Under the pieces are notes generated by a model. The model searched no databases and had not been told where the DNA came from. It worked only from the letters and a program-made list of their open reading frames with translations. The position numbers and the translations under genes were made by a program. A DNA stretch of 64,000 nt from contig OY482855.1 of NCBI GenBank assembly GCA_960531495.1, forward strand, positions 12,301,865 through 12,365,864. Direction: 5' to 3'. This document shows, one piece after another, positions 9,611-60,430 of the stretch. Every line of letters begins with the position of its first letter. Positions within the stretch are counted from its first letter, which is position 1. This DNA comes from Zeus faber (taxonomy: Eukaryota > Chordata > Actinopteri > Zeiformes > Zeidae).

Positions 9611-11978
9611 ATCCCTCGGTGTTATCCATTCAAGGTTGTAAGGGGGGGGGGGGGATTCACCAAAACACCGCCTGACTTCACCGCATGCCAAAGATCCATC
9701 GAAAGGTCATGACCGGGAGAGGCGACGCGGCTCGTCCAAGCACTTTCCCTTGGACTCAGAAAAAACCTGAAGACAGTTTTGATGATCGCAACCTAATGAA
9801 TACATATTTAGGGATACGGTTGTCTTCGAGATAAGACGCCGCTGATAGAGCGTTGGCGGGACAGTTTTTTGGACTTTGGGCCGCCGACTGGGGAAAGCAG
9901 CATTACGACTCGACCGCCTCGATTCCTCAAATCAGGCAAACTAAGATGAAAACCGACGAGGAAAGATGACGACGAATTTGATGCAACTTGATAAAACCCA
10001 TTAATCAAAACGTAACTCTTTTCGTATCTTGTACTGCGGTAAGAGTATGCGTAATAAAACCATTATGTGTAATTATGCACAAATCAAATGGACACAAAAT
10101 TGGCTGTTGTACTTCGTTTTTGTTTTTTTTTCTTCTTCCACATTTAGACAAGTTTTAGTGCACTGGAAACCCTTAAAACTTCAAAAGTCAAGCTCATAAT
10201 GATGTTCTCTAAAAATATATTGCTGTCAACTACTTAAAAGGCTGCATGCTGCCTCTCCTTCATTTCACTGCTCACAGTTGTAGTTATATGGGTAGTTAAA
10301 ATAACTACGTCACAAGCCTCCCTCGCAAAAAGCCCCGACCTAATACGCTGAAAGAAAATCATTATGAACTTGGAAAAAACTTCGAAAAAATGATTGCTTA
10401 AATTTGTTAAACCTATGTTGTCAATCTTCTCAGCTTCAAAGTCACACGTTGAATTCTCAATTTGAAGTTCAGTGAAACTAAATATATAGGTTTTACAAGT
10501 TTTACAAAGGTTGTTTTTTTTTTTGTTTCTTTGTTTTTTGTTTTAATTGATCCAATGAGTCATTTGCGTCAGGACGGGGTCAATGAAGTGGGCAAACGAT
10601 GGGAAAAGATTTGGGTTGCCCCAGGAAGTTGGAGGGAAACGTTGGCAACAAGTGGGTTTTAACACTTTAAACGGTTTGAATAAAGGACTACATCAATTAA
10701 AATGTCTTGCCTTCTTTAAAAAATAAGAGCCAATATATTTGTTCTCGACCCAAAATACCTCATTTGGTGCAAGTTAAACACCGCTTCAACGTGTCACTGT
10801 AATCCACTGCCACTCAGATTAAATCATTTCTCTTTTTCTTTCCTTTTTTTTTTGCGATGCATCATCCATTCTCATGACAAACTCCAAGGAAACTCCCAGA
10901 TGGCTGTATAAGAAATGGGAAAATTATTGGTTTACACAGCACGTACCATTGTGGTGCAGGGAAATGTGCCAGCTCTCTCAAAGACCCATTTTCCACTCTG
11001 CAAAGTCCGGCTTCCAAAAAAAAAAAAAAAAAAAAAAAAAGTGTTTTGCAGGGAGAGCGAGAAGAGAAGAGGAGACTTGACTGTGTTCTGCTGTCCCGTT
11101 TGGGGCCTAACGGGAGAAATGCAGATCCCAACACGGGACGGCCTGTTTCTCGTTTTGTTTTTTTGGGGTTTTTTTTTTCCCCCCCTTGTTATTTTTTTTA
11201 ACCCCAAAAAAAAAAAAAAAAAAAAAAAAAGTTTTTCACGTGCGAAGGGAGCAAAGTCGTAGAATCCCTGCAGCCCTCTTCGCGCAAAGTTGTTTTTCCA
11301 ACTCGTGTTATTCCCGTGGAGAAACTTCGGCCGCACCGAGGCTGCGGGGACTGCGTGTTGGGCGCCGCCGCTTGCCGCTGCGGCGCGGTGCGGCGCGGTG
11401 CCGCGGCGCGTCGCGCAGGTAGATCCGGGGAACGAAGCGTCCGCCGCGCGTCCCGCCCGTGTCACCGTCCGAGGAACGGAGCTTCTGTCCCGGGCAGTAA
11501 GTACAGTAGCCTCGTCTCCCCTTCTCGGTGCTCGGCCGCTCTCAGCTGTTGCTTCTCGGTTGTCAAACGAAGAGCGGGAGAACCCCCCCCCCCCCCTCCC
11601 CCAGGAGTCCCCGCCGCCCTCCTCCACCTGTTCCCCGGCGTCGGAACACAAGTTCGCGCGGCGCCTACCAGCCCACCGCGCGGCAGCGCGGACGTCGCGA
11701 CATCAAGAGTTTGTCGTTGTTATTGTCGTCGTTGCCGTTGCTCTCTTTGTTGGTGGCTGTTGTTGTTGTTTGTTGCTGTTGCTGCTGTTGTTGTTGTTGT
11801 TGTTTTAAACGGACCGGCGACGGAGGACCGAGAGGCTCGAGCGGGCTGGAGCGGCGTGGAAGCGGCGCGCGCGCATAGTTAAAAAACGCAAAAAGCTGAG
11901 CGGGTGGGCGCCGGCCGGGCGCGTGGGGCGGGTGTCGGCGAATGTCGCCGCGTGCTGTCACAATCCACGTCAACAACC

Positions 11979-12009
<31 letters not shown>

Positions 12010-12048
12010 AAAAAAAATTAGAAGAAGAAGAAGAAGAAGAAGAAGAAG

Positions 12049-12079
<31 letters not shown>
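11979..12079. repeat. Poly-G tract followed by (GAA)n
   Basis: About 26 consecutive G, an A run, then AGAAGAAGAA to 12,079. Lies inside the GC-rich island. Confidence 0.96.
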
Positions 12080-12419
12080 GAAAGTGAAAGTGTCGGATCT
12101 CGCGGAGAAGACGCGGGAGGAGGCGCGAGCCGCGTGCGGCGTGTCCGAGAAGCCCGAAGCGCGCGAGGTTGTTGTTTTTGGGTTTTTTTTGTTGTTGTTG
12201 TTGTTTTTTTTTTTGGGGGGGGGGGGGGGTGAATTATTAATAACCGGATCTGCTCCCGGTCTGTCGTGTTGTCGGTGAGGAACCAGGGCGGCAGCTGGGG
12301 GGGGGGGGGGGGGGGGGCGGTTTAGAGGAATTAAAATACGGGCTCAGAGCAAAGCAGGGACGCGGGGGATTAGCGGCTCTCACCGGCAGCAGCAGGGGCA
12401 GCGCCGGGGCCGGGAGCGA

Positions 12420-12570
12420 GGGAGGGAGGGAGGGAGGGAGGGAGGGAGGGAGGGATGGGTGGCTGGAGGGAGGGTGGAGGTTGCAGGGAGAGAGGTGCAG
12501 GGGGTAAGGTGTGGACCGCACCACCTTCTTCCGCCCAAAATAAGTTGGGAGATGCGACAGGCAGGCGCTG

Positions 12571-12606
<36 letters not shown>
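12420..12606. repeat. (GGGA)n and (GA)n repeats
   Basis: GGAGGGAGGGAG at 12,420-12,456 and GAGAGAGA at 12,575-12,606. Confidence 0.95.
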
Positions 12607-12609
<3 letters not shown>

Positions 12610-13257
12610 GAATAAAGCGGTTTAACCGTTGGTGACAGCGGAGGGGAAGCGCAGCTTTGTCCGGTTGAATTAGAACTGGTAGCGTCGTGCGGATCCCAAA
12701 CTTCTCCCGCGGACCCGGCGGTGAAACGAGCAGCGTTCCACATCGGGACCGATACACGAGCAACGTCCAAGCCAGTCCACCTCGTTTCACCCGTTTGTCG
12801 CTTTGTTTTTGGGGGGAGAACTCGTTCCACTGGCGCGGAGCAGGTGCACCCACCGGTTTGTGCGACGCAAAGTGAACTTTCGGAGTTTGAACTGGAGTTG
12901 GGGCTTCCATTCAAACCGTGAGAAATCCGATCTCGTCGTCATGAAATAAATAATCACCAGTTAAATTAGGCGGCTACAGACTTATGGGCAATCAACAAAT
13001 TGAACAAATTCATTGAACAAAACCGTCAACAGTTTCCGAACGAATCCGCCTGAAATCAGTCTGTTAGGATAATTTAAAGAAATGGATTTTGTTTTAAATG
13101 AGATGAAAATATAGTTGAGAAGCTGGAGGGGAGAAAAAAGTTAGACAAAAATCTCATTCGTTCAACTTTTCATTTATTTACTGTGAACTCGCGTTTTAGA
13201 CACTGGCAATATTAAGATGTCATATGTTTCAGTAATGAACACACACACCGCTGAAAG

Positions 13258-22030: not shown

Positions 22031-22046
22031 AGAGGCAGCGTCCTAC

Positions 22047-22130
22047 CATCCACCATGACCTGGCAGGGAAGTCACAACACAGTTGCCACCTGAGTCCTGG
22101 ATCATCCGCTCGCTGCCTCTGACCCTCCAT
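22047..22130 (-). CDS. nfix: Alternative first coding exon of a nuclear factor I gene, probably nfix
   Basis: Reading the minus strand from an ATG at 22130, 28 codons stay open and end WQLCCDFPARSWWM, directly followed by a GT donor (ATG|GTAGGA at 22046). NFIA has a known alternative N-terminus ending in WQLCYDISARTWWM that is spliced in phase 0 to the exon beginning DEFHPF; this exon also ends in phase 0. The match covers the distinctive tryptophans and cysteine, which chance would hardly give. Upstream the frame stays open to about 22,200, with a possible TTTTCTTTCCAG acceptor just above 22,190, so the true start could be in an earlier exon. The NFI DNA-binding exon is absent here, so the gene continues past coordinate 1. 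Neighbouring gadd45gip1 favours nfix over nfia, since GADD45GIP1 and NFIX are close on human 19p13 and diverge as they would here. Confidence 0.7.
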
Positions 22131-22313
22131 CCACCACTCGGCCGTCGCTGCCTCCCGCGGCACGGCGCTGCTTCCTGGGAGCGGAGGCGTCGATCTGGAA
22201 AGAAAACACAGTCAGACGAACGGGGGAGAAGACGGACAGAGCACCAATCGGGAGCTGGGGCTACACAACACCAGGATGCTGTGAAGGCAGGGGAGTGCTG
22301 AAGAGAGTATACG

Positions 22314-36968: not shown

Positions 36969-38264
36969 ATGGCGGCGTCCGTGCTGCGCGGTAGGACGGC
37001 GACGTTATGTCAGACAGTTAAACGTGTTTCGTGCTTGAAAACTCGAATTCCCGGCGCCTCGCAGAGCGGGCTCTTGCCGCACGCCGCGAATTACAACCCG
37101 AAGCCGCTGAAGTTGAACCTGAAGGGGCTTTATATCCCGGACAAGGAGAGCGAGAGGACGCCGGAGTGGCAGAAGACCGCTAAAGCTGACCGCAAGCTGT
37201 ACGGCAAGCACGGCTCTGCGTCGGGCGTCGACCCCGCCACGCTGTGGCCCTCTCACGCCCAACTGGAGGTGATGGTTAAAGAGGAGGACGAATGGCACCC
37301 GCCGCTGGATGTGACGCTGAAGAACGTGGAGGCGAGGGAGGAGGAGGAGGCTGCGAAACGCCGTGCCAGGTAAGTACGCTGGCGTGTGCAGCCAACGTCC
37401 TCCCACGTTTACTTTCCGATTGTTGTCATAATATCTGCTGTTGTAGGTCTACATGATTGGGCCCTCAACCGTTGTGCGGGTTATTTTAGCGTTAAGGGAG
37501 AATTGCTTGGAGTCATTCAAGACTAATAATAAGTGTTATTGAATTATGTTTTTCTATTATGACTAATAAAACGTGATTTCCTTCTATTCACGTAAAGCAC
37601 CTTGAGCTGCATTTTGTATTATAGATTGTTATTGAGCTCTTGAAGTTAATCTTTTGGTAGATTTCCTGCAGATATTGCTACATCGCTTATTTTATGTTTC
37701 GATTCTATTTTGCATTTCGTTGGAAATACCTACATGGTATATTATTTTGAACGGTTCATTACTTATCTTGCATGTGTATATTAAGTTGATTTAGCGTATA
37801 TAATTTTACAATGGACAGGTTGTAACGTCCTGCAGTATTGACAAGAAAAGCAAGGGTTAAGCAACGATTTATAATGAATCATCGCCATTTACTGTGACAA
37901 TATTTAACATTTACATCATGCAGGAGTAAACTGAATGACTGGTCTCAACACCGTTTATGTGTCTTTCAGGGAAAAGGTAATAGCTGACAACATGGCCAAG
38001 ATGCCCCAGATGATTGCTGACTGGCGTAGAGAAAAGCGCGAGTCCAAACTGAATTTAAAAGAGGAGAAGGCTCGGCGCGATAAGATGCTGGCGGAGGCCC
38101 GCGAACGTTTCGGCTACGCAGTTGATCCCCGCACCCCGAAGTTCTTGGAGATGGTGGCTGAAATTGAAAAGGAAGAGAAGAAAAAGAAGAAACTAATGAA
38201 ACGCAGACTAAGAGAGCAGCAGGTGTCGACCCCTCCTTCTCCCGCGGATGCTGCGTCATCATAG
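36969..38264 (+). CDS. gadd45gip1: gadd45gip1: mitochondrial large ribosomal subunit protein mL64 (CRIF1)
   Basis: Two coding exons, 36969-37369 and 37970-38264, joined through a GTAAGT donor and a TTTCAG acceptor in matching phase, give 231 residues (human about 222). The first ATG lies in GAAAATGGCGGC; the in-frame sequence upstream has no better start. The family member is a subunit of the mitoribosome large particle near the polypeptide exit and is also reported as a nuclear partner of GADD45 proteins. Visible support: a basic, acid-poor N-terminus (residues 1-35) fitting a mitochondrial presequence; a conserved HGSASGVDPATLWPS segment (81-95); MPQMIADW (145-152); a long charged helix; the block RFGYAVDPRTPKF; and a lysine-rich tail like the nuclear-localisation tail of human CRIF1. 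The 600-bp intron has no recognisable gene. An AATAAA polyadenylation signal lies at 38578-38583. Identification is firm from the motifs and length. Confidence 0.96.
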
Positions 38265-48027: not shown

Positions 48028-48140
48028 CTACATTTACATTTACATTTAGTCATTAAGCAGACGCTTTTATCCAAAGCGACTTACAAGGGAGAATAACATT
48101 CAGCTACATTGCGACAGAGATTAGTGTAACAAACTACACA
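48028..48140 (+). repeat. Teleost interspersed repeat with AGACGCTTTTATCCAAAGCGACTTACAA core
   Basis: The run from TTACATTTAGTCATTAAGCAGACG through TATCCAAAGCGACTTACAA is a strongly conserved core of a repeat found across teleosts. Only the core and some flank are present. Confidence 0.6.
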
Positions 48141-58563: not shown

Positions 58564-60430
58564 GTGGCAGACTAAGGGGCGTGCTTAAGTCCCAGCTGCA
58601 GACGGCAATATGGCTCCCTTTCCCACGGCCCTATTAAGTGACCGTCTCTCTTCGTCCCAGAGGGCGGACATGGCTGCACTTCAGCGTTGCATCTCTGATG
58701 CTTTCTCCTCCCTGCCAGGCCTCACGTCTCTCATACACCAACCCTAACCCTAACCCATGTGGAGACGACCCCGGGGGGTGAAGGTGCACTCTTGGCCGTA
58801 TCGCCTGCCTGAACATAAACGCAAGATCGTGCAGGCAGAATTAGAGGCAATGCTGGACATGGGGTTGATAGAGGAGTCCACGAATGACTGGTCTAGTCCC
58901 ATCGAGCTGGTGGGTAAGCCCAATGGGTCTGCCTGGTTCTGCATAGAGCTATCGAAGGGTGAACGCAGTGTCAAAGTTCAACGCCTATCTGATGCCCCTG
59001 GTGGATTAACTTCTCGACTGGTTAGGTACGGTTCGTTTTTTCACGACACTGGATTTAACCAAGGGCTACTCGCAGATTCCCTTGTCTCAGGAGTCCAAGG
59101 AAAAATCTGCATTCTCCCACTCTGTTTGGGTTGTACCACTTTCGCACACTTCCGTTTGGGTTGTTCGGTGCCAAGCCACCATTCAGAGACTTATAGACCC
59201 CTTCACATGTAGCATACGCCGTGGCCTACCTAGACGACGTAATAGTTCACAGCGACACCTGGGAGCGACATATGCAGCATGTGGGTGCAGTGCTTGAATC
59301 CCAGAGGCGGGCTTGGCTCACCGCCAACCCAAAGAATTGTGCCGTGGGACAGAGGGAGATACAGTATCTCGGGTACCACTTGGGTGAAGGCCTGTTCCGG
59401 CTGCAGCTTGATAAAACTGCTGCGTTCGAGACCCAAGACCAGGAAGGAGGTGAAGCAGTTCTTGGGGCTGGCTGGCTACTATATAATGTTTGTCCACGAC
59501 TTTTTCAGAGCTAACCAGCGCCTTGTCTGACTTAACTCGAAAGGGTGCTCTCGATCCGGTCCAGGGGTTAGAGAAGTGCCAGCAGGCGTTTGCAAGGGTA
59601 AAGTCAGCTCTCTGTGGAAAGTCAGTGCTGTTTAACCCTAACTTCTCTCTCCCTTTCTGTCTGCAGACCAACACACCGGACAGAGGGCTGGGCACGGTCT
59701 TGTCGCAGGAGGTGGAGGGGACTGAGTGGCCGGTGCTTGTACCTCAGCCGCAAACTCTCAGAGCAGTAGTTGAGGTACAGGACAGTGGACAAGGGGTGTT
59801 TGGCGATAAAGCGGGCCGTCGGTACCCTCTGCTATTACCTCCTGGGATGAGCTTTCACCCTCTGTTCGGACCACGCCCCGCTGCAGTAGCTCTACCGCAT
59901 GAAGGACACAAACACCCGGATCACCCGGTGGTACCTGGCTCTCCAGCCCTTTAACCCCTAGGTAGTCCATAGGCCGGCGGTGCAGATAGTAGTGTTTGAC
60001 TTTCTCTCCCGCTCTGGTGGGGTTCGGCTGTCGGTCGGACGACTCTTTGGCCTAAGTCGGGCTGTGGGTGTATGTGGCGGACCAAGGGCATGGTCAAGCC
60101 CCGGCTGCAGACGGCAGCACAGCTCCCTTTCCCGCAGCGGCCAAGCTGCCTCATATCGGCAGAATGAGCGCCCGTGCAGAGCTGATTGGTCCGACTCGGG
60201 GCAGGGAGATTTCTTAATGTTTGTCTGTCTTGCAGAGGGGATCGGTGAATGGGCTCGTCAGCTGACCAGGAGCCAGAGCGGAACACCATTCCTCCTGCGC
60301 TCAAAATGATCATAATCATCATCTCTATTTTATATTATTGACACTTGTGGCCAGTGAGCCTTTTTGTTCTCGCCATGTTGCAAACCACGGCCAGCAAGAC
60401 TCCGTCTCCCTCCCTAAACCCCTACATGTG
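58564..60430 (+). mobile_element. Ty3/Gypsy-type LTR retrotransposon fossil
   Basis: Related sequences near 58,564-58,680 and 60,073-60,180 (both beginning TGTGGC-GAC and sharing CAGACGGCA and CTCCCTTTCCC) look like the two long terminal repeats, the left one reduced. Between them are parts of a Gypsy-class polymerase polyprotein: reverse transcriptase segments including the YLDD active-site box near 59,227, and an RNase H-like segment near 59,640. The gag, protease and integrase parts were not recognised. The copy is broken with several disruptions and lacks much of its interior, so it looks old and inactive. It lies between tspan1 and znf653. The outer borders are approximate. Confidence 0.8.

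Follow-up and report, generated by a model that had tools for sequence, protein, structure and literature searches.

Genes and features of the locus

We analysed a window of 64,000 bases from the Zeus faber genome (contig C11, positions 12,301,865-12,365,864), which holds gadd45gip1 on its plus strand and, on its minus strand, a short coding stretch that very probably belongs to a gene of the NFI family. Splice junctions are marked below by a slash. The features, in window coordinates, are:

22,047-22,130, minus strand: probable alternative N-terminal coding part, counted from the first ATG of the exon, by homology to an exon of nfia
22,039-22,046, minus strand: putative splice donor ATG/GTAGGACG, phase 0, identical to that of nfia in all eight intron bases
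36,969-37,369, plus strand: first coding exon of gadd45gip1 (Pfam PF10147, E 1.7e-11; tblastn of the human protein; ATG and donor read)
37,968-38,261, plus strand: second coding stretch of gadd45gip1, outer limits approximate (PF10147, E 4.1e-23, in the frame 37,935-38,261; tblastn 37,968-38,144)

Direct translation of the minus strand from 22,130 to 22,047 gives MEGQRQRADDPGLRWQLCCDFPARSWWM, which ends at a codon boundary and is followed by GTAGGA. The final codon is itself ATG, and a phase-0 donor lies directly behind this Met codon, as in the nfia exon. The donor is middling, with a score of 6.2 that ranks 263rd among the 7,474 GT sites of the window; our splice scores come from approximate frequency tables, which makes the ranks more telling than the values. 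The context of the start codon is weak (T at -3, G at +4), and the peptide is flanked by (CT)n and (CA)n repeats.

Elsewhere in the window, remains of a retroelement were found at 59,197-59,951 on the plus strand, with RVT_1 and RT_RNaseH_2 in two of the three frames tested. Rfam places an UnaL2 LINE 3' element at 48,044-48,097 on the minus strand; this was the sole RNA-element match in the window, and no tRNA was found there.

Homology of the exon

Five NFI sequences were compared with the window by tblastn with the low-complexity filter off, keeping the best 25 rows. The best among the matches listed is the exon itself (22,112-22,047; 54.5% identity over 22 amino acids, E 3.9e-7, 36.6 bits). 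Each of the remaining 24 begins at query residue 226 or beyond, in the C-terminal halves, and is a proline/serine-rich, low-complexity match. None of the matches listed covers the DNA-binding exon. When the search was run with filtering over 250 kb, the exon was retained at E 1.6e-5.

The exon core fits the type WQLCxDxxARxWWM, and 10 of its 14 core residues equal those of nfia. An ungapped six-frame BLOSUM62 scan with the 17-residue core of the Zeus faber nfia exon scored 73 at the exon, the next best of the 127,900 positions in the window reaching 31. The best score in 200 dinucleotide-preserving shuffles was 42, and none reached 73. Convincing homology covers about 17-22 residues, short of the full 28. 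A sequence-only reading had taken this minus-strand peptide and its phase-0 donor for an alternative N-terminal exon of an NFI gene, and the scan and shuffles bear that out.

Genome-wide searches covered 803 Mb in 153 contigs. The alternative N-terminus of human NFIA has two matches at E<=10: the nfia exon (C1:36,178,358-36,178,447, 77% identity, E 1.4e-9) and the window exon (55% over 22 amino acids, E 0.009). The fish nfia peptide found the same two and no others at that threshold, with E 1.3e-11 and 0.029, respectively. Taken alone, E-values of 0.009 and 0.029 are modest evidence for the window exon. With the 49-residue window frame as query, the matches were the frame itself, nfia (E 0.26) and three weaker ones, which we take as chance.

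A chance match amid low complexity is scarcely credible. The peptide is short and lies between two simple repeats, its genome-wide E-value is 0.009, and one low-complexity row of the unfiltered window search ties with it in bits (36.6, E 8.4e-5). Against this, the shuffles fall well below its score, and in 803 Mb it is the second of two matches, upstream of an NFI gene, on the strand of that gene and with the same donor. Together, the shuffles and the genome-wide search strongly disfavour chance.

A search of the PDB with the 28-mer returned three de novo designed trefoils (best E 1.9e-7). These were rejected as homologues since the score sums three equal repeats, each with an i-Evalue of about 10 or worse.

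The NFI genes of Zeus faber and the assignment to nfix

Queries with NFIA and NFIX identified five NFI places in the genome. Four were named by best score to human sequences, and the fifth by its matches to NFIX:

C1, 36.08-36.14 Mb: nfia
C22, 9.17 Mb: nfib
C1, 8.29-8.30 Mb: nfic, with slim margins in two of three pieces
C11, 12.19-12.21 Mb, minus strand: nfix
C4, 25,663,901-25,675,687, minus strand: second nfix-like gene, five exon matches to NFIX

The five stretches on C4 appear with the NFIX query at E<=1 and are unlisted with the NFIA query at E<=0.001. In the nfic-like gene (C1:8,298,768-8,301,077, minus strand) the DNA-binding exon is in three pieces, divided by two phase-0 introns at GEKAE/VKQKW and RQADK/VWRL with GT and AG ends throughout, whereas it is undivided in nfia and nfib.

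The nfix exons lie at C11:12.192-12.212 Mb on the minus strand, as does the window exon, so that their lower coordinates are downstream of it. The best of them (12,193,581-12,193,757) shows 89.8% identity with human NFIX over 59 amino acids, compared with 59.1% to NFIA (66 columns) and 45.3% to NFIC. The nearest readable one (12,212,112-12,212,276) has 50% identity and E 4.3e-5. From C11:12,212,276 to the donor side of the window exon at 12,323,911 there are 111,635 bases; the sequence-only reading had placed the rest of the gene 22 kb or more away, and the distance to this nearest readable same-strand exon agrees. Its further statement that the window has no other NFI exon holds for recognisable coding exons, both among the tblastn matches listed and in the 250-kb search.

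The neighbouring genes agree with nfix. Neighbours of human NFIX include RAD23A, GADD45GIP1 and CALR. Two of these three were found near the locus, one on each side: rad23a past the 3' end of nfix (tblastn), and gadd45gip1 (36,969-38,261), which stands head-to-head upstream of the exon, has a CpG-rich 5' end and is transcribed away from nfix. The 250 kb searched, 25 kb of them N, gave no match to CALR. Judged by position, strand and neighbours, the exon belongs to nfix and not to nfia; assignment to nfia was ruled out, as nfia lies on C1 and the exons on C11 are closest to NFIX.

The DNA-binding exon of nfix was not found in the readable sequence: seven genome matches at E<=10 include none on C11 or C4, and tblastn over the 250 kb around nfix gave none, 25,000 of those 250,000 bases being N. 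If present in the usual order, it would lie between 22 kb (the end of the window) and 112 kb from the window exon. Within the readable part of C11, regular expressions for first exons ending CLTQ/GT or CRLQ/GT had no minus-strand match. In the readable sequence of the second nfix-like gene, neither an alternative N-terminal nor a DNA-binding exon was found. Likewise, the genome search at E<=10, in sequence that is incompletely readable, gave no comparable exon for nfib, nfic or the second nfix-like gene.

Comparison with nfia and probable selection on the peptide

The paralogue nfia of the same genome served as the conservation comparison. Its alternative N-terminal exon (C1:36,178,358-36,178,432) is of the same core type, the cores of the two exons reading SIKWQLCYDISARTWWM and GLRWQLCCDFPARSWWM. 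It ends in a phase-0 donor ATG/GTAGGACG whose last codon and eight intron bases are identical to those of the window exon, and it precedes the DNA-binding exon of nfia by 35,015 bases, just as the window exon stands far upstream of its gene. However, the two belong to different genes on different chromosomes, and the N-terminal halves of their peptides are unrelated.

The long N-terminal form of human NFIA, which we take to be MKLADSV...WQLCYDISARTWWM, carries the same motif directly before DEFHPF and finds the window exon when used as a query, although its gene is NFIA and not NFIX.

Between the window exon and the nfia core, 9 of 16 codons differ, by 13 bases and with six residue changes. 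We simulated this divergence by placing 13 random substitutions into the 48-base nfia core (20,000 trials per setting). A stop was gained in 53-68% of trials, six or fewer residue changes without a stop were left in 2.6-3.6%, and 0.02-0.11% equalled or exceeded the real score. This outcome points to selection on the protein, the simulation being a crude one of 48 bases without a tree.

These figures also bear on whether the exon is a relic that nfix has ceased to use, which we consider quite unlikely. Six residue differences in 16 from nfia would fit a relic, as would the failure to find a second copy in the other nfix-like gene. On the other hand, the frame is open, the donor is intact and the similarity is kept above what random substitution leaves.

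First or second exon of the transcript

The open frame extends upstream of the ATG, back to a strong candidate acceptor TTTCTTTCCAG/A that lies 148 nt before the donor. Two further candidate features follow:

22,195-22,214, minus strand: candidate 3' splice site, with the branch-point-like word CTGAC (A at 22,212), a pyrimidine tract and CAG
22,047-22,194, minus strand: possible full exon of 148 nt if the upstream acceptor is used, open throughout (49 codons and one base)

The acceptor scores 12.0, which ranks 10th among the 7,729 AG sites of the window; seven AG sites, this one among them, exceed 4 within the 900 bases that precede the donor. In nfia an AG stands at exactly the same distance from its donor. 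Its score, however, is no more than 6.2, ten sites including this one exceed 4, and a stop within the 148-nt stretch leaves the nfia frame open for just 45 codons. We therefore regard the equal distance as a mild coincidence.

CpG observed/expected is 0.62-0.65 in three 500-base tiles over the exon and 0.53 in the 500 bases upstream, against a window mean of 0.74; neither the exon nor the bases just before it carry a marked CpG island. This does not decide the matter because the nfia exon is equally low (0.52).

Whether the exon is the first or the second of its transcript is thus at about even odds, and a first exon with its own promoter, as the sequence-only reading had supposed, is unproven. 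Within the reading of an alternative nfix exon, we put slightly short of an even chance on a genuine first exon whose promoter adjoins it upstream, in which case the site at 22,195 would resemble an acceptor by accident. The counterpart in human NFIA is a first exon some 200 kb upstream. In addition, pyrimidine-rich DNA gives chance acceptors, one of which scores 12.3 and precedes the nfia donor by 495 nt, and the stop in the nfia frame within the 148-nt stretch means that an internal coding exon is not common to both genes. The want of a marked CpG island speaks against a first exon, as do the high rank of the acceptor and the frame that stays open from it to the donor.

A related but improbable history is that the exon is older than the split of NFIA and NFIX and has become, in nfix, a second exon of 148 nt, transcribed from a promoter far upstream; this might be a CpG-rich start that nfix shares head-to-head with gadd45gip1. 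On that history, there would be a long, unannotated 5' transcription unit of nfix leading to a Trp-rich N-terminal form.

Between the exon and the rest of nfix lies the most CpG-rich stretch of the window (11,001-13,000, observed/expected up to 1.5). Beside it, ATG/GTACGT at 10,947 on the minus strand is a candidate for a short non-coding first exon. The two together are possibly another nfix start. We treat the 10,947 site as a lead only, since the minus strand has 46 ATG/GT sites, five of which outscore the donor of the exon.

A probable alternative N-terminal form of NFIX

The explanation that we favour, with considerable confidence, is an alternative N-terminal coding exon of teleost nfix on the minus strand. 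Observed directly are the peptide, the donor, homology to an exon placed likewise before nfia, the same-strand position upstream of nfix and the neighbouring genes. The exon looks like a real, easily missed, ordinary part of the gene.

Splicing, promoter use, choice of start codon and any effect on the protein are inferred as follows. Transcripts starting at or upstream of the exon would include it, and the ATG/gt donor would join it in phase 0 to the DEFHPF exon, the intron between them exceeding 22 kb. The reading frame would run on through the M/DEFHPF junction, so that NFIX would gain a Trp-rich extension. The predicted product is NFIX with about 28 additional residues, ending WQLCCDFPARSWWM, before the DNA-binding domain and in place of the short usual leader. 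Because the last codon of the exon is ATG, leaky scanning could also yield a protein beginning MDEFHPF. Most likely the exon supplies NFIX with a second N-terminal variant under separate regulation, produced in certain tissues or at certain stages.

Published splice forms of NFIX, Nfix1-3, are variants of the same gene that skip exons 7 and 9 and alter the C-terminal end; the accessible part of that source, a review on the splicing of transcription factors in muscle, does not mention an N-terminal form (PMC5852603). For NFIA, a case review gives 31 transcript variants and calls their significance not clarified (PMC9777632). The core peptide strings did not occur in the open-access papers searched, and among the papers listed by topic, taken by title and the start of the abstract, none treats the exon.

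If the favoured reading is true, nfix in Zeus faber would span at least about 130 kb, and descriptions of NFIX that name C-terminal splicing alone would overlook an N-terminal form. Knocking out only the usual first exon, or studying only its promoter, could then leave the alternative form in place. One fish would have, in two NFI paralogues, N-terminal exons of one kind that protein-level selection maintains, and the form would therefore probably be used in both.
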